Shown: positions 2,022 to 39,532 of the stretch, piece by piece | How positions within the stretch are numbered: position 1 is the stretch's first letter | How the letters are laid out: each line of letters begins with the position of its first letter | IMG/VR virus record: IMGVR_UViG_3300047175_000039 | Coordinates: 1 to 39,532 of that record | DNA length: 39,532 bases | Source: a virus | Strand: one strand, 5' to 3' | Made by a program: the position numbers and the translations under genes | Notes under the pieces: generated by a model | Told to the model about the DNA's origin: nothing | The model's database searches: none | The model's input: only the letters and a program-made list of their open reading frames with translations

Positions 2022-2437
2022 CCCTTTGGCCCCTCGCTCGGTCGCTCGAAAGAAAACTCGCGGACGAATACACCGCGCTGATCCGCGAGCAAGCAGTTGC
2101 CCTGCACGAGCAGGAGGTTGCGCTGGAGGCGTCGCGCCAACGTAACCGCGGCCTGATTGCCGAGGTGGCCAGCCTGCGCATGGCGCTGGGCCAGGCCCAA
2201 ACACTGATCGCGTCCGGTCTTCCGGAGCGCAACAAAATGGCGGCCGCGCTGGTGTGTGATCTGGGATGCGCGGAGAACCTCGCCTCGATGGCGGCATGTC
2301 TCAAGTCTGAGGCGGACGGCAGCGAGTTTTCGGAGGCGCTAGCGGAAATCAAGCGGTCGATGACGCCGTTTTGGATGCGGATGGCGGCCGCGGCGATTGG
2401 GCATTTCGATCATTTGAAGTGGGGGCAAGACCATTGA
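2018..2437 (+). CDS. hypothetical coiled-coil protein
   Basis: The product has 139 residues. Residues about 8-70 are continuously helical with heptad character (ADEYTALIREQAVALHEQEV, then LIAEVASLRMALGQAQTLIA). The C-terminal 55 residues match the C-terminus of the protein at 1486-1863, sharing EN.xSMAACL and a final W...A..AI.H.D.L pattern. It begins in an ATGA overlap with the membrane peptide gene, so the two products are made together. The shared C-terminal module suggests a common binding partner, but no known family is recognised. Confidence 0.55.
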   Translation: MTLWPLARSLERKLADEYTALIREQAVALHEQEVALEASRQRNRGLIAEVASLRMALGQAQTLIASGLPERNKMAAALVCDLGCAENLASMAACLKSEADGSEFSEALAEIKRSMTPFWMRMAAAAIGHFDHLKWGQDH

Positions 2438-2505
2438 TCATCGTGCGCACGCAGGGCGATAACGGCGAGCCGCCCAGCGCTGCCATCAACTGACGCGCGG
2501 CGCCG

Positions 2506-4233
2506 GTGTCGCTCGATCTGCTCGACCTCAGTGACCTGGACCTCGATGGGTTAGAGCGCGCGGCCGAGAGCGACGATGAGGTTGAGCGGCTCGCGCGGAT
2601 CAAATGGGAGAGCGAAGCGAGCCTGATGGGGTTCGTGCGCCGGTTTTGGCATGTACTGGAGCCGGCGACGCAATTGGTGGACGGCTGGGCGCTCGATGCC
2701 ATCTGCGAGCACCTGGAAGCCGTGACAGACGGGCGGCTGCTGCGGTTGCTGATCAATGTGCCGCCTGGCTCGTCCAAATCCATCCTGGTGTCCGTCATGT
2801 GGCCGGCCTGGGAGATGGGGCCGCGCGGCATGTCAAGCGAGCGGTATCTGACGTTCAGCTACTCGCCAACCCTGACGGAGCGGGACTTGCGCCGGTGCCG
2901 CGACGTGATCGGCAGTCCTGACTATCAGGCGATCTGGGGCGCGCGCGTCGCCATAGACCGGCGGCAGGATGGCGGCGAGTTCTTTGCCACACTGAGCAAG
3001 GGCTGGCGATTGGCTTCGTCGGTCGGCGGTGTCGGCACCGGTCTGCGCGGTTCTCGCCTGATCTGCGACGACGTGCACAACGTTAAGCAATCGGAGAGCG
3101 AGAAAGTGCGCGACGAGACGATCCGCTGGTGGCGCGAGGTCCTGCCGACCAGGCTCAGCGACCCTACGACCGGCGCTATCGTGGTGGTCATGCAGCGCGT
3201 GCACGAGGGCGACGTGGCCGGCTGGATCATGGGCCACGACACGCGCAGCGACTGGTGCGTGCTGATGATCCCGATGCACTACGACCCGGAGCGGCACTGC
3301 GCTACGTCGATAGGATGGCAAGACCCGCGTGGGCTGGACGACGAGACCGGGGAGCCGCTGGCCGGAGTCGGTGAGCGGCCGCAGGCTTGGTGCGAGGAGT
3401 TGCGCAAGCGGAATGGCGAGTTGTTTTGGCCCGAGCGGTTTCCGGCGTGGACCGTGGACCGCGAAATGGAGACGATGGGGCCGTTCGCGGTCGCCGGCCA
3501 GTATGAGCAGGCGCCAACCCCTCGCGGCGGCGGGCTGATCAAGGCCGAGTGGTGGCAGTTGTGGGAGCGGCCGCGCTTTCCCGATATGGACCTGATCGTG
3601 GCCAGTCTGGACGGCGCGTACACGAAAAAGACGGTCAACGACCCCAGCGCGGCGACCGTGTGGGGGCGGTTCTACCTCGATGGCATCAAGGCCCCGCAGT
3701 TCATGCTGCTGTGGGCTTGGGCCAAACGGCTGCACATCCACGAGCTCGTAGAGCGGACGGCGCGCACCTGCCTGGGCGACTGGCGCGAGGACGATGAGTT
3801 GGCGCGAGACCCGCGGCCGGCGGACGATTTGGGGCGCGTGCTGATGCGTGCCGACATACTGCTGGTCGAGAACAAGGCGTCCGGCGCGTCGGTGGCGCAG
3901 GAGATCGTGCGGCAGCACGGGCGGCAGAAGTGGCGCACGCTGTTGATCACGCCCAAGGGCGACAAGACGGGGCGGCTGCTGTCGGTTGAGCCGTTTTTTG
4001 CGGCCGGTCAGGTGTGGGCTCCTGACAAAACATGGGCGCAGGACACGATAGACGAGGTGTCGTCGTTTCCGCGCGGCGCGCACGATGACCGCGTGGACTC
4101 TCTCGCCCAGGCGCTCGCTTTCATGCGAAACACCGGGGCGGTGCGGACCACGAGAGAGGCGGAAGACGAATGGTTGAGGGCGAACACATATCGCAAGCCG
4201 CGGCGGGCGCTGTATCCGGCGGCGGCGCGGTAG
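2506..4233 (+). CDS. terL: terminase large subunit (packaging ATPase-nuclease)
   Basis: This 575-residue protein is the motor that translocates DNA into the prohead and cuts concatemers. The ATPase domain has a Walker A-like loop NVPPGSSKS (residues 84-92) and a Walker B strand LICDDVH (about 185-191) with DD in place of the common DE. The nuclease domain has the RNase H-fold acidic residues: D369 in VASLDGAYT, E455 in LLVENKASG, and the HDDRVDSLAQAL motif at 526-537. Length is usual for the family. The start taken is GTG 2506; the ribosome site there is poor and the 68 bases before it hold no convincing gene. The portal lies 1.5 kb downstream. Confidence 0.95.
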   Translation: MSLDLLDLSDLDLDGLERAAESDDEVERLARIKWESEASLMGFVRRFWHVLEPATQLVDGWALDAICEHLEAVTDGRLLRLLINVPPGSSKSILVSVMWPAWEMGPRGMSSERYLTFSYSPTLTERDLRRCRDVIGSPDYQAIWGARVAIDRRQDGGEFFATLSKGWRLASSVGGVGTGLRGSRLICDDVHNVKQSESEKVRDETIRWWREVLPTRLSDPTTGAIVVVMQRVHEGDVAGWIMGHDTRSDWCVLMIPMHYDPERHCATSIGWQDPRGLDDETGEPLAGVGERPQAWCEELRKRNGELFWPERFPAWTVDREMETMGPFAVAGQYEQAPTPRGGGLIKAEWWQLWERPRFPDMDLIVASLDGAYTKKTVNDPSAATVWGRFYLDGIKAPQFMLLWAWAKRLHIHELVERTARTCLGDWREDDELARDPRPADDLGRVLMRADILLVENKASGASVAQEIVRQHGRQKWRTLLITPKGDKTGRLLSVEPFFAAGQVWAPDKTWAQDTIDEVSSFPRGAHDDRVDSLAQALAFMRNTGAVRTTREAEDEWLRANTYRKPRRALYPAAAR

Positions 4234-4403: not shown

Positions 4404-5437
4404 CCACCGCCTACACCGCGTCCCTGCGCCTAACTCAGCCAGGCGTCGGTGACGTTGCCACGCAAAATGCGTGGGGCGCCCTGCTCAACACCGATATGGC
4501 GCTGATCGAGGCGGCGATCACAGGCAAATCGCAAATCGACACGGCAGGTGCCTCGACACTGACGCTGACCACGGCCAACGGCGCGACGGACCAAGCGAGG
4601 CCATTTTGCCTGTATTTTATTGATTCGAGCGGCGGCAACATTCCATGCGTGGTTACCGTGCCGGCCGTCGTCAGATTTGGGCTGGTCATCAACACCTGCA
4701 AACATGTCGTTTATCTTACGACAACAGGCAGCGCGCCGTATTTATCGATCCAGCCTGGCACTGCTCCGTTTCTATATTACTGCGACGGGACAAATCTTAG
4801 TTCTTTCGTCAATCCGGGTTTCGTAAACCGTTCTGCTTCGTATTCCGGGACATTCACGATGCCGGCCCCGCTGGTGCGGTTCAAACTGTGGGGCGGTGGC
4901 GGCGGGTCACCTGATGTGCATGCTTTGACTGGCGGTATAGGCGGTGGCGGTGGCGGTGGCGCGTATTGCGAGTTTACATATTACGGCTCGACATCCACAT
5001 CCGTTACCAGCTCAATAGGAACATCAGGTAGTGGAGCGTCGGGCGGAAGCACGATACTGACAATACCGAGTGCCAGCATTACCGCGACGGCCGGCGGCGG
5101 TGCAGTCGGTGGATCGAATAGTGGGTCGGGGGGCGGCGGTTCCGCCAATGGTGGCGCAGGCGGAACCGCCACATTGTCCGGCGTAAGCGGCATACTGTCC
5201 AATGGTTTGCAGGGTGGCACCGGGTTTTCTGGCTCTATAGGCGGAACCATTTTTTCTTTGGGTGGCACCGGAGGCTGCAACACCTATGGCGGCGCACCGG
5301 GCGGTGCAGCCCTGAGCATCAACGGTTTTGGCGGGGCGTTCACAGGCCAAGGAGGCGTTGCCGCAGGTTCATCTGGCGCATCGCAGGGGAGCTATCCGAC
5401 GCAAGCCGGCCCTGGGCAACTGATTTTGGAGTGGTAA
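4400..5437 (+). CDS. tail fibre / glycine-rich adhesin
   Basis: The start chosen is GTG 4400, overlapping the preceding stop (GTGA); an open frame upstream to 4295 is only the shadow of that gene. The 345-residue product begins TTAYTASLRLTQPGVGDVAT, then NAWGALLNTDMALIEAAI, a start I know from short tail-fibre-like proteins, with a beta-rich middle (LTLTTANGATDQAR, FLYYCDGTNLSSF). From about residue 165 it becomes a glycine-rich domain opened by LVRFKLWGGGGG, with long Gly/Ser runs to the end (LILEW). This resembles glycine-rich receptor-binding tips of phage adhesins. Its place between terminase and portal is unusual. Virion location is inferred. Confidence 0.7.
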   Translation: MTTAYTASLRLTQPGVGDVATQNAWGALLNTDMALIEAAITGKSQIDTAGASTLTLTTANGATDQARPFCLYFIDSSGGNIPCVVTVPAVVRFGLVINTCKHVVYLTTTGSAPYLSIQPGTAPFLYYCDGTNLSSFVNPGFVNRSASYSGTFTMPAPLVRFKLWGGGGGSPDVHALTGGIGGGGGGGAYCEFTYYGSTSTSVTSSIGTSGSGASGGSTILTIPSASITATAGGGAVGGSNSGSGGGGSANGGAGGTATLSGVSGILSNGLQGGTGFSGSIGGTIFSLGGTGGCNTYGGAPGGAALSINGFGGAFTGQGGVAAGSSGASQGSYPTQAGPGQLILEW

Positions 5438-11260: not shown

Positions 11261-11812
11261 ATGTCCGACACCGAAACAATGCTGCCCGCCCGCCGGACGC
11301 GCTCGCCGCGTGCTAGGGTTGAGGTTGATCCCCAGGAGTTCATCGACCCGGAAACCGGCGCTCCGATCAAGCGGCGGTCGCGGCGAGATACCGGCAATTC
11401 CGAGTGGGATGTGCCGGAGAAATACCGCAAGCCGCGCTGGGATTATCAGTGGTTCACCATGAAAGTGCTTGGCGTCGAGGAAGACCCCGAGACGTTGGTG
11501 TCGATTGCCGATGGCGGTTGGCGCGCGGTGCGTCCGGACGAAATGCCAAACATGGTGCCGTCCGGCTACAGCCTCAAAACCATCGACCGGCGCGGCATGC
11601 GCTTGTTTACCCGGCCGCTGCACATCAGCGAGGAAGCGCGCGCGGAAGATGCCGAGTTCGCCCGCGAAGTGCGCCGGCAGAAGTTTGCCCAAGCACAAAT
11701 GGGCGACCCGGCCAATCGGGATCTGGCACCGCGCGCTGCCGTGGCGCAACGGTTCGCGAGCCAGTACGAGCCGCTTCCGGTGGATGCTCGGGCGGACGTC
11801 CAAGAGGTTTAG
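11261..11812 (+). CDS. putative minor virion protein
   Basis: The product has 183 residues from ATG 11261, behind a good AAGGAG. The N-terminus is basic (LPARRTRSPRARV). The core has DYQWFTMKVLGVEEDPETLV, then GGWRAVRPDEMPNM and GMRLFTRPLHISEEARAEDA. I associate this arrangement (W-x-x-x-x-V-L-G near a G-W-x-x-V element and R-P-x-x-(L/I)) with unassigned proteins lying between scaffold and capsid genes in podovirus-like genomes. A virion or head-maturation role is therefore likely from context, without direct proof. A 278-base stretch without a convincing gene follows. Confidence 0.5.
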   Translation: MSDTETMLPARRTRSPRARVEVDPQEFIDPETGAPIKRRSRRDTGNSEWDVPEKYRKPRWDYQWFTMKVLGVEEDPETLVSIADGGWRAVRPDEMPNMVPSGYSLKTIDRRGMRLFTRPLHISEEARAEDAEFAREVRRQKFAQAQMGDPANRDLAPRAAVAQRFASQYEPLPVDARADVQEV

Positions 11813-12077
11813 CGAGACAGGTTGCCGACATCCAACACCGCTCGCACGGCGGTGCGAAGGCAGTCCTCCTTACCGCCTGCGGCCTGAACGGACGCGTACG
11901 CAGGCGCATAGGCAAGCCCGGTCGGCGTGAAATTGAACGGGAAAGGGCTGTCGGTGCGCTAGAAAAAACACTGTTGCCCAGGCTGGGCGCGTCGCTCTAA
12001 TTCTGCATCCGACCGCAGCGCCGCCCCGGCGTTGCTCTCCCCGCGATCTTCCCTGCGCGCCCCGCCAGGTCAGAGCG
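11813..12077 (+). other. non-coding interval before the head genes
   Basis: This is the longest gap in the window. One frame stays open from the upstream gene's shadow to 12000, but has no ribosome site and an Arg-rich, gene-unlike composition. There is a short palindrome at 11976-11988 with no T tract, and a pyrimidine-rich stretch near 12030-12060. I see no convincing promoter. The gap separates scaffold-side genes from the abundant head proteins, so a promoter or processing site would be expected here. Confidence 0.5.
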
Positions 12078-12099
12078 CATAGACAGGTTTGTGTCTATG
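12078..12099 (+). promoter_or_regulatory. hairpin covering the start codon
   Basis: CATAGACA (12078-12085), loop GGTTTG, TGTCTATG (12092-12099) is a perfect 8-bp inverted repeat. The ATG of the following gene (12097-12099) lies in the 3' arm, and the only Shine-Dalgarno-like bases (AGG, 12085-12087) lie at the arm-loop junction. In RNA this would hide the start and could limit or time translation. The structure is seen in sequence; the effect is inferred. Confidence 0.5.
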
Positions 12100-12720
12100 A
12101 CGACTTTGACGCTTGGCCCGACCGGGCTGTCCTATATCCGCAACCGTCGGTCGCTGTCGCCGAACTATCAGCCGAACACCTACTACATCAAGCAGGGCTA
12201 TGCGTCGGCCATCGGTTTCGGCGATGCGGTCAGCACGTTGACGGGCGGCAATGTCGGCTACATCGGGCCTTACCTATCCGGTCTCGGAAACCCAGTGCTC
12301 GGCGTGTTCATCGGCGTTCAGCCCTACTACGACACGGTGTTGCAACAGACCGTCAACAAGCGCTGGTGGGCCGGCACCGAGTCCCCATCGGCGGACGTGG
12401 CGTGCTGGGTGATTGACGATCCGGACGCGATCTTCCTCGCGCAGATCAGCGGCGGCCCGCTTACGCTGGCCAACTCGCGGCAAAACATCGACCTGACCGG
12501 GAACGGCGCGCCGAACACCTACGGCGTCAGCACGGCCGCGCTCAACTATTCTACGTTGGCAACGACTTCGACGCTGCCGTTCCGGATCATCGGGCCGAGC
12601 ACGATGGGCGCGCCCGGCTACGACCCGACCCAGCAGTTCAACAGCCAGCCGACGAACGGATACGCCGAGGTCATCATGAACCCCGGCGCCTCTGAGTTCA
12701 ACATCGGCACCGGCATTTAA
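12097..12720 (+). CDS. putative head decoration / structural protein
   Basis: The start taken is ATG 12097; GTG 12091 is possible and adds two residues. The product (207 residues) is beta-rich, with few charged residues and many Gly, Thr and Ser. Markers are NPVLGVFIGVQPYYDTVLQQ, then a WWAG turn, ACWVIDDPDAIFLAQI, and the end ASEFNIGTGI. Proteins of this type, with a V-I-D-D-P-x-A-(I/L)-F motif, stand directly before the major capsid gene in several podovirus-like genomes and are taken as head-decoration or capsid-associated proteins. Its stop is 15 bases from the capsid start, so the two should be co-expressed. A hairpin overlaps its start codon. Confidence 0.55.
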   Translation: MTTLTLGPTGLSYIRNRRSLSPNYQPNTYYIKQGYASAIGFGDAVSTLTGGNVGYIGPYLSGLGNPVLGVFIGVQPYYDTVLQQTVNKRWWAGTESPSADVACWVIDDPDAIFLAQISGGPLTLANSRQNIDLTGNGAPNTYGVSTAALNYSTLATTSTLPFRIIGPSTMGAPGYDPTQQFNSQPTNGYAEVIMNPGASEFNIGTGI

Positions 12721-12735
12721 GGGGAGGGCTGACAC

Positions 12736-13644
12736 ATGTCGATTTCAACCGCACAGATCGCCCAGCTTCTCCAGCCCGGCATCCGCAAAATCCGTGGTGA
12801 CTACCCGGAAATTCCGGCGCAATGGTCGCTCATCTTCGCTAGGGGCAAGTCCGACCTTCAGGTCGAAAAGACGCAGAGCGTTCGCCTGCTTGGGCTGCCC
12901 GGTCTCAAAGGTCAGGGCCAAGCCACCAACTTCGACAACAACGCCGGCACGCGCTGGACCTACAACCATCTGCACCAGGCGGTCGGCCTCGGCTACTCGT
13001 TCACCCGCGAGGCGATGGACGATAATCTCTACAAGAGCCAGTTTACGCCGACCAACTTGGGGTTGATGAAGTCCTTTCGCCAGTTCAAGGAAATCCTGGC
13101 GGCCGACGTGTTCAATCTGGGCAACGTCTATAACCCAGCCGTCGGCGGCGATGGCTACGCGCTATTCAGCACGTCGCACCCCGTCGATGGTTACACGGTC
13201 CCCAACACCCCGAGCGTGGCCGTTGGCCTTAACGAGGCGACGCTCGAAATGGCGTCGAACCAAGTCCGCGCGTTCCGCGACAACGCCGGCCTGCTAATCT
13301 CCGCGCAGTCGCGCAAGCTGTTCGTGCCAAAGGAACTGCGCCGCGTCGCCAAGCGCCTACTCGAAACCCAACTGCGGCCGGGAACCGCGAACAACGATCT
13401 GAACGCGGCCAAGGAAAACGGCGACTTCGATGAAGGCTACATCGTCGGCGACTTCCTGACCTCGCCCTATTCGTGGTTCGTCATCACCGACAACGGCGGC
13501 TTCATCTACTTGGAGCGCGTCCCGTTCGAGACCGACATGCAGGTCGATTTCACGACCGACAACCTGCTGGTCAAGGCCTACGAACGGTATTTCATCGGCT
13601 ACGATGACTGGCGCGCGGGCTGGGGCAGCTTCCCGACCAACTGA
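12736..13644 (+). CDS. major capsid protein
   Basis: The product has 302 residues from ATG 12736, with a strong ribosome site (GGGGAGG, seven bases before). Features expected of an HK97-fold shell protein of the Mu gpT-like kind are present: an N-terminal helix, LGYSFTREAMDDNLY (about 94-108), FSTSHPVDGY, a long backbone helix LNEATLEMASNQVRAFRDNA (about 165-184), LFVPKELRRVAKRLLETQ, and a late domain ending VKAYERYFIGYDDWRAGWG. No N-terminal propeptide or protease is obvious, so maturation may be without cleavage. It would form the icosahedral shell around scaffold and portal. Confidence 0.8.
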   Translation: MSISTAQIAQLLQPGIRKIRGDYPEIPAQWSLIFARGKSDLQVEKTQSVRLLGLPGLKGQGQATNFDNNAGTRWTYNHLHQAVGLGYSFTREAMDDNLYKSQFTPTNLGLMKSFRQFKEILAADVFNLGNVYNPAVGGDGYALFSTSHPVDGYTVPNTPSVAVGLNEATLEMASNQVRAFRDNAGLLISAQSRKLFVPKELRRVAKRLLETQLRPGTANNDLNAAKENGDFDEGYIVGDFLTSPYSWFVITDNGGFIYLERVPFETDMQVDFTTDNLLVKAYERYFIGYDDWRAGWGSFPTN

Positions 13645-24700: not shown

Positions 24701-25092
24701 AACAGGGTCGGATCGACAACGCTTCAGATGCCAACGATATCCGGCGCGATGCTTTGGTGCAGCGGGCGACATTGGCCGCGGCTGCTCAAACGGAGGCTGA
24801 AAAAAAGGCCGTTGCATCAGCAACGGACGTTGATCTAGGGATCGCAAAATCCCTCATGGTTTCAAATGCCCAAATCGGCAAAACTTTGAGCGTCGGCGAC
24901 GCAGTGGCGCAGGCACAGCAAATGCGGTCGCTTATGGCTGGCCCGGCCGGCAAACCAACCCAGCCGACCGCCGGCGCCGCACCGCAGCAGCAGCCGCAGC
25001 AGCAGCCCACCTACCAGGAAGGGATGACTGCGACCAATCCATCTACCGGCGCCAAAATGGTATTTAGGAATGGTCAGTGGACGCCGCTGTAG
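21712..25092 (+). CDS. internal virion / ejection protein with repeated GG motifs
   Basis: The product has 1,126 residues from ATG 21712 in an ATGA overlap. The first 320 residues are Gln/Ala/Asn-rich and helical, with the telltale SAGAFGGDRMGVAQGILGGQ (about 156-175) and many QQQ runs. Proteins with an A-G-A-F-G-G-x-R near YxxQV...Q are the usual internal virion proteins of podoviruses. Residues about 320-780 are Gly/Ser-rich and carry at least seven copies of a (H/A/T)-G-G-(R/I)-(V/I) motif, for example AAGGRVPRAVGGR, HGGIVVPFPQ and TGGIVVPFRRHFDDGGS. A coiled coil follows, and the end is AKMVFRNGQWTPL. It probably leaves the capsid with DNA. Confidence 0.6.
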   Translation: MSGGGSSTTTSSTTVPQTFLDAYNSTVNRASSVANKPYQAYTGNLVAGFSPDQTMAQGEVEQAQGAYQPELNAANSAVGASTAPLWSNTMQTGVSPSSGIAGYTPNFYGSSPQVNAGTISQYEDPYESQVIGATEAQIANTDAQQMAQLGGNAASAGAFGGDRMGVAQGILGGQQDIANNSTLAGLNQSNYAQALAEANQQQQTGIAANEASLASGESEFNNQQQAQLSANEANAWLNSQAGYAYGNLAQESNNLALGDASALASSGLTQQQQAQAGLNTAYEQWQAQQAFPYQQTGWLANITEGIGSNVGGSSTTTQTNNAAGGRVPRAVGGRTGYDNGGGILSEIPDVATSYIPTSGSGGSGGGGIGRGPPAPPSAQVQPGMSPSSMIGAVSGATSLYNDLGGPQLIGTNGIISGPLFGGSSAPSIIGNSGMGIASDGESVPLTNMGSSAFGPGLDTLSMPSPATVGASNPSLFGSLFGSGSAAASVPSTEIASSAIPASTEIGSASFIPTIGTDTAALDGTIPTLTADAASGAGSGGIGFLGSLGSAVDAGASAVGDGLATGAGAIASGVGAAADAVASGASAVASWLLPLFAFLKHGGRVGTEPQHHAHGGIVVPFPQREARAHGGIIGNNGEMPYSMAPPVLATGTTGMPVMGIFGTSSQPGPANLSPSGGALADGGIVTRAFGGGMGSGRGNSAPTTGFGNFAAPSYTVSGTPGAGNTNPMGILSPSGYNSAASMGAHPFGLKTGGIVVPFRRHFDDGGSTDPQPTDAMVDQLRADETAGAQSDAAAAAAPATGAAPQPNAAASSTPGVGATQTYQPEKPNLWIPALAGLATAALGRHHEVGHNIAEGVLAGLGTYSKEDEEYQGQQEKAATIQQEAKRLADQAEQHRADLAETSRHDTATESTAALNAASDAAYRAASGRADLENANSNAVRAAADVSSSVAMQNLRDVEAARGDWFNSGTTPDGKNSVMINRFTGEQKPVPLINPTVAQQGRIDNASDANDIRRDALVQRATLAAAAQTEAEKKAVASATDVDLGIAKSLMVSNAQIGKTLSVGDAVAQAQQMRSLMAGPAGKPTQPTAGAAPQQQPQQQPTYQEGMTATNPSTGAKMVFRNGQWTPL

Positions 25093-28000
25093 GGACGCTG
25101 CCACCAGGCTTTGTTGTCGATACCCCGCCCGCCGGCGCATTGCCGCCGGGTTTTGTGCTTGATGCACCCGCGCCACACCGCTCTCGCACAGGCGGCCTGC
25201 CGCCTGCCGCGCTCGACACCGACGACAACATATCCGACCTCGCGCGCGCCGATGACGCGCAGCGCAATGCGCCTGGCTTTGAGGATATGGCGCCGGATGC
25301 GGATGCCAAAGGACCGTCGAACAGCCCCCTTACCGGCACGACTTATGCCAGGGCACTGATCAACTCCGGCAACCAAGCGATGATTGGCGCTGTCGGCAGC
25401 GGTATCCGCGGCGCTTCCAATGCCTATCAGCGCGCCGGCGTTGAAGGCGCAGAGGCCGATATTGCCGCACGGACAAACCCCGACTCGATTGTGAGCCCGG
25501 AAACAAACCCCCGCGCGCTGACGGCTCAAATGGGGCGTGCCGCCTATCTGCGTTCACAAAGCCCGGCCGACAATGCGGCAGCCGTGACGGCGGACAAGGC
25601 CATGATAGCGGCCGGTGCCGGCCCTGCTCCTGGTGCGCAGACCGGCCAGGATATCATCGACTATGCTCAGAAGAATTACCCCGTTGATCCGAGAGCCGTA
25701 GGTTTTGGCACCAAAATTACCGGCGCGCTGGGCGGCTTTATCCCTATCGCTGCGGCGGGCGCAGCCGGAACCGCCGTTGCCGGGCCGTTGGGTGGCGCAG
25801 CGGCGATGACAGCCGTTGCGGCGCCACAGACCTATGACGGCCACTACCAAGCAGCCATTGCCAAGGGCGCCACGCCAGACCAAGCAAACGATGCGGCGAC
25901 CAAGGCGGTGGAACTGACCACGCCGCTGATGTTCGCCCCCTACGGCGCGCTGTTCAACAAGATACCTGGGCTGCGCGATGGGCTTGCATCGACGCTGGTG
26001 AACCTCGGCAGGCAGGGCTTGACGTTTGGTTCGGCCAGCGCCGCACAGCAGTTCGCCAACAACTATGTGGCGAAGAACACCTACGACCCCGACCGAAATT
26101 ACACGGATGGCGTGGCTGATGCGGCGATGGAAGGCACAATTCTCGGCATTGCAGTGCCCACCGCCATGGGTGTTGCCAAAGGGATCGGTGCCGCAATCCG
26201 CAATCGCATGCCGCCCGCGCCGAGCGCCGGTTACCAAGCAGCGGTGGGCACGCTCAAGCGCATCGCTGGGGCGCCACCCGACGCATCAGCGCCCCCACCG
26301 CCGCCGCCAGATGCCTCAGCGCCAACGGCGCCGCCGCCAGAGCCGTCCCCTCGGCCGCCAACGCCGGCGCCTCAAGATATGGCGACGCCGAAACCCGAGC
26401 AGCCCACCACATCGCCAAACCAGCCTATCTCCGCTCAGCCGGAGCAACGGCCTGCCCAACCGACCCCAGCGCAGGCCGCAGCAGGCAATGACCGGAAGGT
26501 GCAGACCAAAGTTGGCGGCCTCAACATCGCCATTGAGACGGCGGCCGGCCAAATACGCCAAGGCGTGGGCGCCGACGGTCAGCCCTGGTCTGTGCAAATG
26601 CCGGCCGATTACGGCTACGTGAAGGGCACCGAGGGCGCCGACAGCGACCCGGTGGACGTGTTCCTGCGGCCGGGTGCCAAGGCTGCCGCACCGATGAAGC
26701 CGGTTTTCGTCATCGACCAGAAAGACCCTGAGACGGGTCAGTTCGATGAGCACAAAGCCATGATCGGCTACGACACGCCGCAGCAGGCTATCGCTGACTA
26801 CCTCGCCTCGTTTTCCGATGGGTCCGGCACCAAGCGTTACGACAACGTGACCTCGATGACGTTTCCCGAGTTCAAGGAATGGGTGAAGAACGGCGACACC
26901 ACTTCGCCGATTGCCGGGCAGATTGGTGCGCCTGCATCATCGGCGCCTGTCCCATCAACGCCGCCGTCGGCATCGGCGCCTGTCCCATCAACGCCGCCAT
27001 CGGCATCGGCGCCCGAGCCGCAAGGCGCGACCGCCCAAATTGCGCAACCTAATCAATCTCCAACAGCGGGGCCTTCTGCGCCTACAGCCTTGGATAACGC
27101 TTTGGATGCCCAAGGCCATTTTATAGATGTTAAAGATCTATACCTTGAGGGCAAAGCCACAAAAGAAGATGTGTCCGCGGCTAAAGAAAAAGCAGAAGAT
27201 GCTTTCTCTAAGCTTTCTGCCAATTCGTCATCCGCTCCGGCGTCGAACGCACCCACGCCTCAAAGCCCGAGCGCGTCTCAAACGACACCCCAAAATTCTA
27301 CACCCCCCACCCAGGATGCCTCCGGCCGCACCATGGTCGGCACCAACCGCGATGGCCGCCCGGTGTGGCAGGACCCCAACGGCGTGCGCTCCATCATGGA
27401 TGCCGGCATTCGTCAGACCGAACCCGTGCAGATGGTGCCGACCCCACAGGGGCTACACCCGGTTGTTGACACGCGACACCGGCCGCCTGATTTCAAAACC
27501 ACCGAAGAACTCGCCCAGGAGGGCGTACCCCATGATGTTCGGCAGCCTGATAGCGAACCTGTTGCGCCAACGGGACCCAAAAGCGTTCAACTTCCTGGCA
27601 CGGTCGGGACAGCTTCCGACGTGGATGCAGGCCAGGGCCAGGGAGGCGGAGGCGCGGGTGGCGGAGATAATGGCACAGCACCCGCACCACCAGCCAGAAA
27701 ACCCCGAGCCAAACGCGCTACGGTCAGCGCAGGAGACGGTGCTGGCGGATCTGACGGACTTCCTGGTGGACCTGCACCCGGAACCGCCCAACGACCTGCC
27801 GACACCGAAGCGCCGGCGGTCGGATCAAACCTCGTCCTCGCTCCCGGCGAGATAGAGGAAAACCGCAGCCTAGGGCAAAAGGCGCGTGACAACCTCGCCG
27901 CCATTGAACTTTCCAAGCAGATCGTCGCCGACGGCCGGCTGCCGACCCGCGATGAGCAGGTAGCGCTGGCCAAATACGTTGGCTGGGGCGGCCTGTCCAA

Positions 28001-31000
28001 AGTGTTTGAGGCGCCAGACCCCGCACTCGCCAACAGCGGCTTGGCCCAGATCGGTGCGCGCTTGCGCGAAGTGCTGACGAAGCAAGAATACGAGCAGGCC
28101 CGAAGCAGCACGCAATATGCCCACTACACTGCGGAGGTTGTGGTGCGCGGCATGTGGGACACCGTGGCCGCAATGGGATTTACCGGCGGCATGGTGTTTG
28201 AACCCGGCATGGGCGTGGGTGGGTTTGTCGGCATGATGCCGTCCGACCTGGCGCCCAAAGTGGCCTACCAAGGCATCGAGCTAGACCCGATCACCGCGTC
28301 AATCGCCAAACTCATCTATCCTCAGGCCGGCATTCGGAACTCCGACCTGTTCAAAACGCCAATCCCCGAAGAAGCGTTCGACGTGGCTATCGGCAACCCG
28401 CCGTTCGCCGCATGGACCGTGAAACAAGACCCCAAATACGCCGCCCGCGGCTTTCTGCTGCACGACTACTTTTTCGCGAAAAGCATAGACAGCGTGCGGC
28501 CGGGCGGGCTGTTGGCCTTCGTGACCAGCGCGGGCAGCATGAACAAGCTCGACCCTGACGCACGCCGGTATATGGCCGAACGCGCTGAGTTTTTGGGCGG
28601 CGTGCGGCTGCCGAGTAATGCGTTCAAGCAGAACGCCGGCACCGAAGTGACGACCGACATTCTGTTCTTTAGGCGGCGGCCAGAAGGCCGCGTGCCGCTG
28701 AATCAGGCCGGCGACATAACATGGACTGAGGTTGTCCCACGCACCCTCCCGAGTGCCCAAGGCGGGACAAGGCAGGGCAATGTCAGCCGGTATTTCAGCG
28801 ATCACCCCGAGCAGGTGCTTGGTCGGGAAGGGTTCTTCGACAAGCTGTACCAGGACCGCTACGCCGTTCACGCGCCGCCGGGCCAGGATTTTGCGGCCGA
28901 ACTACGCGCCGCTTTGGGCCGTCTGCCGAAAGATGTGATGACCGCGCCGCTGTCACCCGAGCAGCGCGCCGCCATCGACTTCGATTCCGCGCAGAAAAAA
29001 GACGGCAGTTTTTACGTCGATCCCAAGCAAGGGCTGATGCAATATCGGCAAGGGGCCGGACGCCCGGTGCAGCGGCGCGGGAAGGGCGTCGAGGGCGGAT
29101 TTACCGCGCCCGAGTTGGAACGCATCACCGCTTTGATCCCGGTGCGCGATGCGCTGCGCGATGTGTTCCGCGCCGACCTCGCCGGCGATGACAAGGCCGC
29201 GACTGAGGCGCGTAAACGGCTGAACAAAACCTACGATGGGTTCGTTGCCAAGTTCGGACCGATCAACAAATCCATCGTCACCACGCGCCGGCCGAGCAGT
29301 GTGCAGGAGGAGACGGCCAGGCGCGAGGCACGCGAGGAAGCCCGCGAGTTAGGCCAGCCATGGGACGATGGCACGTTCGACCCCGATCCATTCTACGAGA
29401 AGGGCGCCAAAGCCCATGAGATCGCCAAAGCTCGGCAGGCGACCCGCGACGCATTCAAGGCCGCTGGCAAGCCCTACGATGAGGGCACGTTTGATGCGAG
29501 CGACCTGCCCGACATTAAGATCGAGAAACTGCCGAACATCGACCCGTTCCTGTCAGACCCGGAGAGCTACCGGCTGCGCTCCATCGAAGATTACAGCGAC
29601 GCCACCGGTGCGGGCACGAAAAAGGACATCTTTACCCGCAGCGTCATCACGCGCGAGAAACCGCCGCAGATCAACTCGGTCAACGACGGCATTCTGTGGT
29701 CGCTCAACAAGTTCGGGCGCCTCGACATCGACGCCATCGCCGGGCAGATGGGTAAGACGCCGCAGGCCATCATCGCCGCTCTGGGCGACCGGGTGTTTCG
29801 CGTGCCCGGCAGCGACACGTATCAGGTGGCCGACGAGTATCTGTCGGGCGACGTGAAAACCAAACTCGCCGAGGCGCGACAGGCCGCTGACCGCGACCCG
29901 TCATTCGAGCGCAACGTGGCAGCTTTGGAGGGCGCGCAGCCGACGCCCATCGCGCCGACTGAGATCAACATGGCGCCAGGGATGCCTTGGATGCCAACCC
30001 ACTACATCGAACAGTTCGCCAAGGAGGAACTGAAATTCGGTCGCACGCACGTGGTGCACATTCCCGTGCTCGGCATGTGGAAAGCCGAAGACGCGGCCAG
30101 AGGCTATATCAGCGTCACCGACGATCAATCTGGTTTGGAAAAATATCGGGTAGCCGAGAACGACAACCTGTATCTTGATGCTCATGGCGTTCTCGAAGCG
30201 GCGATGAACCGCACATGGCCGAAATGCTACGACACCGTTCTGGTGTTTGGAAAAGAAAAGCGCGTCCTCAATCCAGCCATGACAGAGCGCGCCCAGGACA
30301 TGGTGGCCGAGGTCAAACAGCGGTTTACCGACTGGGTAGAACGCGACCCGGCCCGACACGAAGCGCTGACCGACCTTTACAACGAGAAAATGAACCGCGT
30401 GGTTCACCGCACATATGACGGAAGCTATCTGACCACGCCGGGCATCTCCGGGCACTGGCGCTGGCGTCCGCACCAGACCCGCGTGGTGTCGCGCATCATT
30501 CTGACCGGCAACACGTACATGGCGCACGCCGTTGGTGCTGGCAAGACGAGTGCCATGATTGGGTCCGCTATGGAAATGCGGCGCCTCGGTCTCGTGCGCA
30601 AGCCGATGTTTGTTGTTCCGAACCACATGCTCGGCCAGTTTACCAAAGAGTTCTACGAGCAATATCCGACTGCACGGATCATGGTGGCCGACGAAGAGCG
30701 GTTTCACACGCACAACCGGCGCCAATTTGTTGCCAACGTGGCGCAAGACGATCTTGATGCCGTGATCATCACGCACTCGGGATTTGGTCATATTCCGATC
30801 AGCGATGAGTTTTCGCGAAGCCTCGTGCAGGAACAGATTGACCAACTTACCGATGCGTTGGCAAGCCTCGACAAAAAAGGCGGCGACCGCATCACAGTCA
30901 AAAAAATCGAGGCGATGAAGAAGAAGCTTGAGCAAAAGTTATTAAAAGCGACTGACCACAAAGACCAGACATTGACGTTCGAAGAAATGGGCGTCGATTT

Positions 31001-34000
31001 CCTGTTTGTGGACGAGGCGCATTTGTTTCGAAAACTGTCATTCTCGACGGTGCTGGGCCAGTTGAAAGGCATCACCGCTGAGGGCTCGGAACAATCATGG
31101 GACCTTTACACCAAGGTCCGATACCTTGAGAGCAAGAACCCCGGCCGGTCACTGGTCATGGCATCCGGCACTCCGATCACCAACACCATGGGCGAGCTGT
31201 ACTCGATCACGCGCTACATAGACCCAGGCGCTCTGGCGGCCCGCGGCATATCGCATTTCGACTCTTGGGCGCAGGCTTTTGGTGACACCGGCTCCGAAAT
31301 GGAGCCGCAACCAGATGGCTCTTACAAACAGGTTACCCGGTTCAATCGCTTCGTGAACGTGCCAGAACTATATAAAATGGTCGGCGCCACGATGGACATT
31401 GTGACCCCGCACGAGTTGAGCAAATACGTGGTGCGGCCGGCACTTAAGGGCGGCTCCAGGTCACTGCAAAAAGCCCCTTTGACGAAAGAGTTGGCGAAAT
31501 ATAGGGACGAGCTAGGCGCGCGGATGAAAGCCATTTCGGAGCGCACTGGGCCACCGAAGAAGGGCGATGACATCCTTCTGTCCGTGATCAACGACGGCCG
31601 GCATGCAGCTATCGACCCGCGTTTTGTCATGGCTGTAGGTGGCGTTCCGCCCAGCAAGCTGAATGCGGCGCTCGATAACGTATTCAGGATTTGGCGCGAC
31701 GGCAAAAACACGCAATTCTACTCGCCCGCCAGCGCTTACAAAGAGAAGTCCTTTCGTGGGCCGTCCACCCAGATGATCTTCTGCAACATGGGCGTGAACG
31801 GTCGCGGGCCGAACGGGTTTTCAGCTTATGCTTGGATCAGGCGCTCGCTCGAAGCGCGTGGCGTGCCATCCAGCGACATTGCGTTCATCGGTGATTATAG
31901 CAATCCGCTACAGCGCCAGGGCCTGTTCAACGACATGAACGACGGCAAGGTGCGCATCCTGGTCGGGTCGGTGCAGAAGATGGGCACCGGCGTCAACGCG
32001 CAACGGCGGCTGGCGGCGCTGCACAACCTCGACCCACTTTGGTTTCCGGCTGATGATGAGCAGCGCGTGGGGCGTATCCTGCGGCAAGGCAACCATAACC
32101 CGGAGATCGAAGTCCACGACTACACGACGGAGGATACCTACGACGCGACCATGTGGGGGATGATGGGCCGCAAGGGGCGGTTCATCGAACAATTCTTCCG
32201 CGGCGACCCCGAATTGCGCGACATGGAGGACTTGGGCGAGGCCAGCATGTACGAGCAGGCCGCGGCCATGACCATGACCGATCCGCGCGCCATGCACCTA
32301 ACGCAGTTCAAGCAGGACCTCCAAAAAGCAGAGCGGCGCCTCTCGGCACATGAGCGAAGCCAAGCTGAAGCTAAAAACCGCATGCGTTCGTTCTTGGACG
32401 CGGCGCGGCGCAACGAAGCTAAGATACCGCTGATCGAGGCCGATATAGCCCAGCGGCAAGATACTCGCGGCGATGCGTTCCGAATGACCGTTGCGCGCCA
32501 AGATTTTGACAACAGAAAGGATGCGGCCGAGGCGCTGGCAGCACTGATCAACGACCGGTCGGCTGGCTGGCCGGTGGCGCAAGATGTGGAAGTGGGCAGC
32601 ATCGGCAGTTTTTCTCTTGTGGCCCAGAAACGCATGGTGACGACGAAAGCTGGAACCAAGCAGCCTACGTTTGATTATGCGCTGAAACTGAACGGCGGGC
32701 GCGAGATAGAAGTCCGCAGCGATAGCGGATCGGCTACGGGGCTCATCCAATCAGCCGAAACTGCGCTACGCCGGTTCGAGACGGACCTGAAAAATGCGCA
32801 GCAGGCCGCGGAAGCATATCACAAACAAGCGGCAGACATCGCGCCGCTGCTGGGGCAGCCGTTCAAAGGATCGGAGCAGATCGCAGAGTTGCGCGCAAAA
32901 GTGCGCGCGCTCACTGCCGAGTTGAGCGGCGAGGTCACTCATGCGCCGATGACCGCTGGCAATGGCGACGAAGTTCCGCGCGTGCAGGGCGCCCATGATG
33001 CCGTGGCCGACGTGCTGGATTTTGGGCGCCGCACCGGCAATGAGAAACTGATTCTCCTCGACCCGGACGCTGGCACGATCGGGCTCAAGAGCGAGGGGAT
33101 CGAGGATTCCTGCGGGTTTACGCCTGAGATGCTGGCCGCGATGGCGGACCCGGCGAGCCGCTTTGTGGCGATCCACAATCACCCCGGCAACCGCGCTTTG
33201 TCTCTGTCTGATCTGACGGTGCTGTTCGACTTCCCGGCGATTGCCGCCGTGATCGCCGCCGCCCACGACGGCAACGTATCGTCGGCAGCGCTTACCGGCG
33301 CACGGACGGGCAAAGCGCGAGACACCTTTGCAAACGCTTACGACAAAGCGGCAGAGCGGGTCGCGAATGCTTTCGTCAACGCCGCGCTGGCCAGCAAGAT
33401 CGACCTTGGCGTGTATGAGGCTTTCTACCACGATGGGATGAACCGCATTCTCGATGCGATGGGGCTTATCCACTATACGTCATCGTTCGCGCAGCCTCCG
33501 GCATTCCATGCCGCGCTGGAAAAGATCGCCGCCGATCTGGCGCCAGGAGAACCCAATGGACGAAATGCTCGACTTGCCGCTGTGGTCCGACCCGATACCG
33601 CAGTTGATCGGTGCGTTGCAGAGGCTCAAGGCGAAGCCGGCCAGCGATCGGGTGACGCAGGTGGCGCTGCGCCTCGTGCGCAAGGAGATAGCGCGCCGCA
33701 AGGCAAACCCCCAGCCGGGGGACATCTGGCCGAAGTAACGCCATCGCTGCGGGATCAACTCCTCTACAGCACCGCGTCTCGCGCACCGCCGGCGTTCGAC
33801 CCAGACCCTAAATTCGTCGCCGGCCTGCGCGAAATGCCGGCGCCGTTCGGCGAGCCGCTGCGCGCCGTGTTCAGGGACATGAAAGACCGCGCGCTGAATG
33901 GCCTGCGCGATCAGGTTGAGTTCTTCTACCCGATGCGCGGCGGCACCCCTCATGCGCAAAAGGTGGCATTCGACCTCGCCAACCGAGAACGGCGCATCGC

Positions 34001-38624: not shown

Positions 38625-39532
38625 GTGGCGCAACTCAATATTAACTTCGGGGCGTTCGTCGGTGATCCGTCGGCCGACTCGACGTATATTGCGTTCCAGA
38701 AAACCCAATCCAATTTCACCCAACTGTTCCTGGAGGGGCCTGGCGGCGCGGTGCCCAACACGCCGCTGCTGGGCGGCTCGGCCGGCGGCACGTTCTCGTC
38801 GGTATCCGTCGGCGCTGCGCTGACGCTGAACGCCTACGGCACGCTGACAGCCACGTTCGGCACGATCACCGGCACCGTGGCGGATGGCGGCGCGTTGGCG
38901 GCAGAGATAGCCCGCGCCGAGGCGGCTGAGGGCACGCTCACCACGTCGGTGTCCGCCGCGTCGTCTGCTGCGGGGTCAGCCTCGGCATCCGCCTCCACGG
39001 CGCTCACGCTGGCCCAGGGCGCCCTACCGCTCAGTGGCGGCACTCTGACCGGCGCAGTGGCGTTCTCGGGCTCCGGCACCCTATCGGCTGGCAGCAACCT
39101 GTACTTGCAGCCGACCAACCAACTCTGGCTGGGATCGGCCAGCGGCACCGGCGCGGTGTATTCGGCCACCATCGCCAACACCACCAGCAACCCAGGCTCC
39201 GCGGCGGTGGGCAAGGTCTGGAACAACGGCGCAGTGCTCAGCCTGGCGGGCGCGTCGGCGCCCAGCCCGAGCTTCGCCGGCACTTTTGTCGCCAGCCAGT
39301 CTTTCGCCGACGTGGTGGGCACCAGCGGCATTTTCCCGCACGCGACCTACCCCACGCCGCCATCACCGCGCAGCGGGCTGTTGCAGGGCGACCGGTGGAA
39401 GGCTCAGGGCATCTTCTCCGCGGCCGACTTCGTGGCCCCGAGCGGCAGCACGTCCATCAGCGGGACGAGCTACGACAACGACGTGTGGCCGGCGTTGCAG
39501 GCGCTCCTGCTCTACGTGCAGGGCGCCTATCT
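38625..39532 (+). CDS. tail fibre protein, N-terminal part (runs off the window)
   Basis: The frame is open from GTG 38625 to the right edge (302 codons seen). It begins AQLNINFGAFVGDPSADSTY, then IAFQKTQSNFTQLF, the N-terminal anchor I associate with fibres that attach to the podovirus tail. A beta-rich shaft with Gly/Ser/Thr/Ala repeats follows: LPLSGGTLTGAVAF (the L-S-G-G-T-(L/M)-T-G element of many tail fibres), YLQPTNQLWLGSASG, and later FVAPSGSTSISGTS. A short Ala/Ser-rich helix (AEIARAEAAEGTLTTSVSAA) interrupts the shaft and may trimerise it. The receptor-binding end is outside the window. With the glycine-rich adhesin at 4400-5437 this phage has at least two fibre genes. Confidence 0.8.
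   Translation, partial: MAQLNINFGAFVGDPSADSTYIAFQKTQSNFTQLFLEGPGGAVPNTPLLGGSAGGTFSSVSVGAALTLNAYGTLTATFGTITGTVADGGALAAEIARAEAAEGTLTTSVSAASSAAGSASASASTALTLAQGALPLSGGTLTGAVAFSGSGTLSAGSNLYLQPTNQLWLGSASGTGAVYSATIANTTSNPGSAAVGKVWNNGAVLSLAGASAPSPSFAGTFVASQSFADVVGTSGIFPHATYPTPPSPRSGLLQGDRWKAQGIFSAADFVAPSGSTSISGTSYDNDVWPALQALLLYVQGAY

Follow-up and report, generated by a model that had tools for sequence, protein, structure and literature searches.

A candidate leader RNA and a start-codon hairpin ahead of the decoration-capsid genes of a gpT-type phage

The stretch of DNA analyzed here, the window, is the 39.5-kb virus record IMGVR_UViG_3300047175_000039 of IMG/VR (positions 1–39,532), and coordinates refer to it unless a relative is named. 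A gene at 12097–12720 (+), supported by homologue alignments, encodes 207 aa from its ATG, with a possible alternative start in the same frame at GTG 12091. It is followed at 12736–13644 (+) by the gene of the major capsid protein, which is Mu gpT-like (PF10124 above the cut-off; PHROG 371, major head protein), and homologues of the 207-aa protein also sit ahead of the capsid gene in related phages. This protein had no match in Pfam or PHROG. Its fold was predicted with a mean pLDDT of 84.6 and had no solved-structure match at E ≤ 0.001; the best matches were weak and of capsid or head-fibre types, i.e., the phage T1 capsid (E 0.007), the phi29 prohead, and FCWL1 capsid chains. When compared with BFVD, uncharacterised phage proteins matched down to E 1e-12. 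We infer that this head protein is probably decoration-like. The gap ahead of its gene measures 278 nt (11813–12090). In another part of the window, a 3876-aa open frame (25077–36707) encodes a very large multidomain protein, with InPase and ResIII above the cut-off and a match to Eco57I methylase below it.

The first-pass annotation had reported, at the start of the head-protein gene, a perfect 8-bp inverted repeat with a six-base loop that encloses the ATG and the only ribosome-site-like bases. The repeat scan and folding found this hairpin, named P3 here, at exactly 12078–12099 (+), as CATAGACA-GGTTTG-TGTCTATG, with the start codon (12097–12099) in its 3' arm, and AGGT at 12085–12088 was, by eye, the sole Shine-Dalgarno-like tetramer at a usable distance. 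The predicted stem exceeds the reported one, as folding extended it to 17 pairs with two bulges at 12069–12110 (+). A 91-nt fold around the start had a z of -3.3, and none of 200 shuffles was equally stable. As an inverted repeat, the hairpin is unremarkable and not beyond chance: perfect 8-bp repeats with loops of 3–10 nt were rarer in the window than by chance, two being present compared with 11.25 on average in 20 Markov sequences, and the 44-nt fold of the hairpin ranked 49th in energy among the non-overlapping local folds of the window.

The accessibility of this start was compared with that of others, giving a set of 32 starts chosen from the ORF list of the window. The start codon of the head gene was the most firmly paired of them (mean pairing 0.999; next 0.904), and opening the region from -18 to the start codon took 12.2 kcal/mol, the 13th value of the 32. 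The description of this start as hidden therefore held for the pairing of the codon, but not for the opening cost. Across 52 relatives, the starts of this gene were no harder to open than those of the capsid gene (means of 12.4 vs 13.2 kcal/mol, P = 0.10), and this comparison thus gave no support for a function of start closure. The proposal of a translational thermosensor did not survive the calculation. The start codon does lie within a hairpin, as in an RNA thermometer, but its predicted pairing was 99% or more at all the temperatures computed between 10 and 60 °C, both in the extended and in the 100-nt context; with the start closed throughout this range, we rejected the thermosensor, whose probability we take to be practically nil.

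Related phages carry a leader RNA of about 95 nt before the gene that precedes the Mu gpT-like capsid gene. This leader consists of two tandem hairpins, P1 and P2, with similar C[5-nt]G loops and strong covariation. Distant relatives were drawn from the best 80 of each of two search lists. In class A, with 119 distinct leaders, P1 and P2 have the loop C[YCGKY]G, mostly with a bulged base on the 3' side; an outer helix, P2b, closes P2, and CTCCT...AGGAG comes next. The P1 or P2 motif was missing, by regex, in four of the 119, two of them truncated by the contig end. In the alignment A4, made of 25 class A leaders chosen by eye for their loops, 89.6% of the cells pair, and 43 cells had changed on both sides, compared with 14.2 after shuffling and at most 21 in slid registers. 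The helix P2b was first spotted by eye and afterwards tested by partner swapping, omitting solely the class A leaders without the P2 motif: 67 of 71 cluster representatives had a P2b of 4 bp or more, vs 66% with swapped partners, and 0 of 2000 swaps reached the observed mean score. At the place that P3 takes in the window, class A has a Shine-Dalgarno hairpin, whose stem reached 4 bp or more for 67 of the 71 representatives vs 53% when the upstream segment was shuffled. Even with swapped partners, 94% had at least 4 bp at this position, so pairing there was not partner-specific; this hairpin shows no covariation because the Shine-Dalgarno sequence is constant. By eye, the loop motif often recurs in the P1–P2 linker (columns 60–72 of A4) as an additional CCCGG-like copy, part of which forms P2b.

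The class B loop, C[RNGCY]G, was defined after viewing 24 non-A leaders; these contained 27 class B hairpins in 18 leaders, with 0.47 expected, and the other six leaders of this nearer clade (window aside) had no class B hairpin by the rule. A fresh scan of the close relatives of a class B locus, in which a gene start was assigned for 60 of 80 loci, found the leader in 20 of 21 leader clusters and two class B hairpins in 19 of the 21, or in 16 of 18 when contigs already seen were removed (L353, L359, and L408, equal to L014, L012, and L013; the L-numbers are working labels of the relatives' loci). The C[5]G hairpins are 33–42 nt apart, and the second lies about 40 nt ahead of the start. The alignment A7 comprised 24 class B loci, i.e., 18 of the 21 clusters (without L411, L426, and L429) and six further loci, leaving out L012 and L013 as duplicates and L094 and L098 by choice; in it, 92 cells had changed on both sides, compared with 33.7 after shuffling and at most 28 in slid registers. 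A search of 394 genomes with the capsid protein of L093 matched just the genome of L093 itself.

The position of these elements was specific. Among the matches listed, all 121 of the P2 pattern had this gene after them (104 by script and 17 by eye, one at a contig end), as had 40 of 46 matches of the P1 pattern; the other six P1 matches are not before this gene, and look GC-rich or repetitive. The class A covariance model, R1, gave 27 matches at E ≤ 1 over 167 sources, all of them ending on the start codon of this gene; 24 came from the training set and three were new (L017, L100, and L009). R1 also matched 59 of 65 and 100 of 100 loci, which had been fetched mostly by pattern. For 102 leaders of remoter capsid relatives, taken with a crude start rule, we found one class B hairpin vs 0.64 expected and no class A hairpin vs 0.44 expected, and the family is therefore confined to the nearer clade. 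Rfam 15 at its gathering cut-offs returned only a tRNA, in L003, for the window, L001, and L003, and nothing for 11 relatives; at relaxed E-values, nothing was found in the window at 11780–12150 or in the L093 leader, and the L099 leader gave six sub-threshold matches, to unrelated families only. We found no description of this leader family in the open-access literature.

Leader hairpins of this kind could act in transcription or mRNA stability, as a pair of hairpins at the 5' terminus that shields the mRNA or alters RNA polymerase in the manner of put and nut RNAs. The put RNAs of HK022 resemble the leader in having two hairpins in tandem close to the 5' end of an operon, and differ from it in acting in antitermination. 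In favor of such a role, promoter-like scores before P1 were higher in class A than in shuffled sequences (mean of 8.58 vs 7.08, 24 loci; P < 0.05 individually in 8 of 24), 11 of 15 records had an R1 match, always a single one (for bacterial genomes, among 150 candidates scored; the four records without a match are those of L001, L091, L033, and L093), and in A4, P1 and P2 paired in 93 and 95% of the cells, compared with 78% for the Shine-Dalgarno hairpin. However, the distance from P1 to the ATG was nearly constant (86–93 nt in 40 loci), a constraint not called for in an element of mRNA stability or antitermination, and class B showed no promoter enrichment (7.1 vs 6.9 shuffled, 20 loci). We consider a role in transcription or stability unlikely, at perhaps the level of an outside candidate. 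Directly before P1 of class B loci such as L353, L358, and L359, a recurring TTGC(A/G), 17 nt, TATRNA was noticed by eye, and was not significant by the TTGACA/TATAAT score.

The window itself was searched with the class B covariance model, R2, trained without the window. It matched 12008–12099 (+) over its full length, with 15.7 bits and E 0.0048, and the match ended exactly on the ATG. This match is weak when taken alone because one other place in the window scored 16.2 bits (39116–39215, minus strand, presumably by chance) and the E-values are rough. Over 99 sources, five of the ten R2 matches below 17 bits ended within 6 nt of the start of this gene, or four of eight without duplicates. 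R1 had no match at the window leader, with filters on or off. In the R2 alignment, P1 is GCAGCGCC-[GCCCC]-GGCGTTGC at 12015–12035 (+), with 8 bp, and was also obtained in unconstrained folds. P2 spans 12043–12078 (+) and is composed of the outer helix P2b, GCGATCT (12043–12049) with AGAGCGC (12072–12078), containing one A-G mismatch, and the inner hairpin P2a, CCTGcGC-[GCCCC]-GCCAGG (12052–12069), with a bulged C and the same loop as P1. An unconstrained fold of the RNA 12008–12080 contained P1, P2b, and P2a. The minimum-energy folds of longer RNA were without P2, as the segment paired with 11986 onward or was rearranged by 12125.

The C[5]G loops of the window are at 12022 and 12058, i.e., -75 and -39 from the start and 36 nt apart, a spacing that fits class B when one bulge is allowed. 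Both loops are GCCCC and depart from RNGCY at position 3, which is C and not G; the class B regex misses P1 and P2, which were found by the covariance model. A count under rules set with the window candidate in view showed that, across both strands, this twin is the sole pair of identical C[5]G loops 33–44 nt apart (also 20–60 nt apart) with stems of at least 5 bp, the random expectation being means of 0.017 and 0 per strand. The twin was not found when no bulge was allowed, as P2a needs its bulged C, and a second twin appeared on the minus strand when 4-bp stems were allowed. The end points of the low-scoring R2 matches, the twin loops, and the fold of 12008–12080 strengthen the weak window match, and the loss of P2 in longer RNA counts against it; we regard the window leader as a likely member of the family.

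Ahead of P1 by 13 nt, there is a weak promoter-like pair at 11974–12001 (+), TTGCCC (11974–11979) and TCTAAT (11996–12001) separated by 16 nt. Its score of 8 had a P of 0.075 in the window and of 0.055 in L001 against shuffles, and a stricter promoter scan of the window found none. A hairpin in the spacer of this region, GCCC[AGGCT]GGGC, fits the class B regex; it is broken in L001 and was dropped.

IMG/VR searches with the head and capsid proteins retrieved two close contigs, one with L001/L007 and the other with L008, which starts inside the capsid gene and so has no leader. L001 is the one close relative with the leader stretch; it is 97% identical overall and identical at 11986–12171, a run of 186 nt that is the 11th longest of this pair, in which such runs are common. 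Because both are identical here, there is no covariation of P1, P2, or P3 that includes the window sequence. Next in closeness comes L091, with 55% protein identity; it is without the arms of the window hairpin and has an 11-pair hairpin over its Shine-Dalgarno sequence, directly before the start; 397 genomes of the family of the L091 genome had no capsid protein nearer to that of the window than 55%. The hairpin scan of the relatives found no hairpin of at least 8 bp over the start codon beyond the window lineage, and only a few of 4–6 bp (L023, L090, L093, L098, L100, and L106). The first-pass annotation had made conservation and covariation of the arms the measure of its proposal: the leader as a whole covaries among relatives, but the arms of the reported hairpin have no such support and are not kept beyond the 97% relative.

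These data bear on whether the start-codon hairpin is a functionless chance fold in a GC-rich phage, a reading compatible with the others and indifferent to P1 and P2 being functional. The scarcity of 8-bp repeats, the average opening cost, the energy rank, and arms that are not kept outside the 97% relative agree with it. Against this, none of the other 31 start codons is as firmly paired, the fold around this one has the z reported above, and P3 abuts P2b, beginning where P2b ends (12078), at the position taken by the Shine-Dalgarno hairpin in class A and by the 11-pair hairpin in L091. We give the chance fold a substantial probability, somewhat short of even. Closure of the initiation region beside P2 appears to recur by different means, the Shine-Dalgarno hairpin in class A and P3 in the window, and may be functional.

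The loops of P1 and P2 are linked to each other. Of 70 class A leaders, 66 had G,G at loop position 5, four had T,T, and none was mixed (probably one lineage), and GGGCC occupied both loop positions in L090, L092, L093, and L168, the P1 stem being short in L092 and L168. Other loop positions differ between P1 and P2, and most class B leaders have GCGCC in P1 and GCGCT or similar in P2. This joint change of the loops suggests that a single partner reads P1 and P2, and a covarying leader with such paired, co-changing loops at a head operon points to an RNA-binding partner; none was identified. The inverted repeats could also be a DNA operator bound by a DNA-binding dimer, and they do lie close to the promoter-like site. 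However, relatives keep the loops while the arms change in compensating pairs, G-U included. At a DNA site it is the arms that would be conserved, which makes a site in double-stranded DNA very improbable.

Operators that control the translation of head genes are a classical feature of RNA phages, but our search of the open-access literature revealed no account of one in this group of tailed DNA phages. The conserved, covarying leader of the relatives, together with the weak window match, makes control of decoration and capsid expression by a leader RNA a reasonable reading, and a protein operator is its likeliest form. An operator for these genes was among the earlier proposals; it is favored by the covarying leader and the weak match before this ATG, but not by any unusual closure energy or by conservation of P3. 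We consider it slightly better than an even bet that the decoration-capsid operon has its 5' leader RNA at 12008–12099, and that this leader is a structured operator and a divergent member of the family found in phages with related gpT-type capsid proteins. The family and its covariation were established in the relatives, the position and a possible fold in the window, and from these we infer a function for the window copy. P1 and P2, with the same loop 75 and 39 nt ahead of the start codon, would be read by a phage-encoded RNA-binding protein; P3, the third stem, closes the start itself and would be what prevents the start codon from opening. The protein would either hold the P2/P3 region or let it go, and would in this way set the translation of the head-protein genes.

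Folding suggested how the two states could be arranged. Extended P3 uses 12069–12077 and therefore excludes P2b. RNA ending at 12100 or 12106 was computed to fold with a form of P2b plus the 8-bp P3, and in the RNA 12008–12112, P2b was lost to extended P3. A bolder reading, to which we attach only a low probability, is a bistable switch of the head operon, in which 12069–12078 pairs upstream, as P2b, or downstream, as extended P3, and a phage protein clamping P1 and P2 decides whether the start is closed; the family would then be a class of tailed-phage leader RNAs coupling head-protein synthesis to a co-evolving RNA-binding protein.

Among known systems, the closest in layout to the structured operator proposed here is the translational operator of T4 gene 43. 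As described in PMC3014915, its hairpin lies some 40 nt before the initiation codon, the operator sequence extends as far as the ribosome site, and the loop is kept while the hairpin length differs between T4 and RB69. The window leader likewise has a hairpin about 40 nt before the start and, if our interpretation is right, would work like this type of operator. The likeness is one of layout: as far as that description goes, gene 43 has one hairpin and not a same-loop pair, and it encodes a polymerase and not head proteins. A hairpin that sequesters the ribosome site of the phage gene mobE, according to a title cited in PMC3014915, also closes an initiation region; in the window, the start codon is within the stem and two hairpins lie upstream. 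The name of the Rfam family RF03012 (Mu-gpT-DE) refers to Mu gpT, the protein family to which the capsid protein of this locus belongs, but RF03012 is a 53-position model and was above the cut-off in none of 20 records searched, the window included. With the leader in view, control of the amount of head protein in a large, mostly uncultivated phage group becomes open to direct reporter tests.

The rest of the gap, upstream of the leader, had features of its own. A stable fold was predicted at 11850–11963; between the window and L001, two compensatory changes were counted on the L001 fold (P 0.006–0.013) and none or one on the window fold. The 15 substitutions between both sequences at 11813–11985 had a spacing that was not codon-like by eye. 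The matching gap in L003 (MW202675.1) is about 1.1 kb long (4267–5407 of L003), with only short annotated ORFs and a tRNA-Met gene at 5153–5229, and that in L009 contains a 305-aa ORF (2342–3259), HNH-like by eye. The site ahead of the leader thus seems to accept insertions, as seen in the L003 and L009 gaps.
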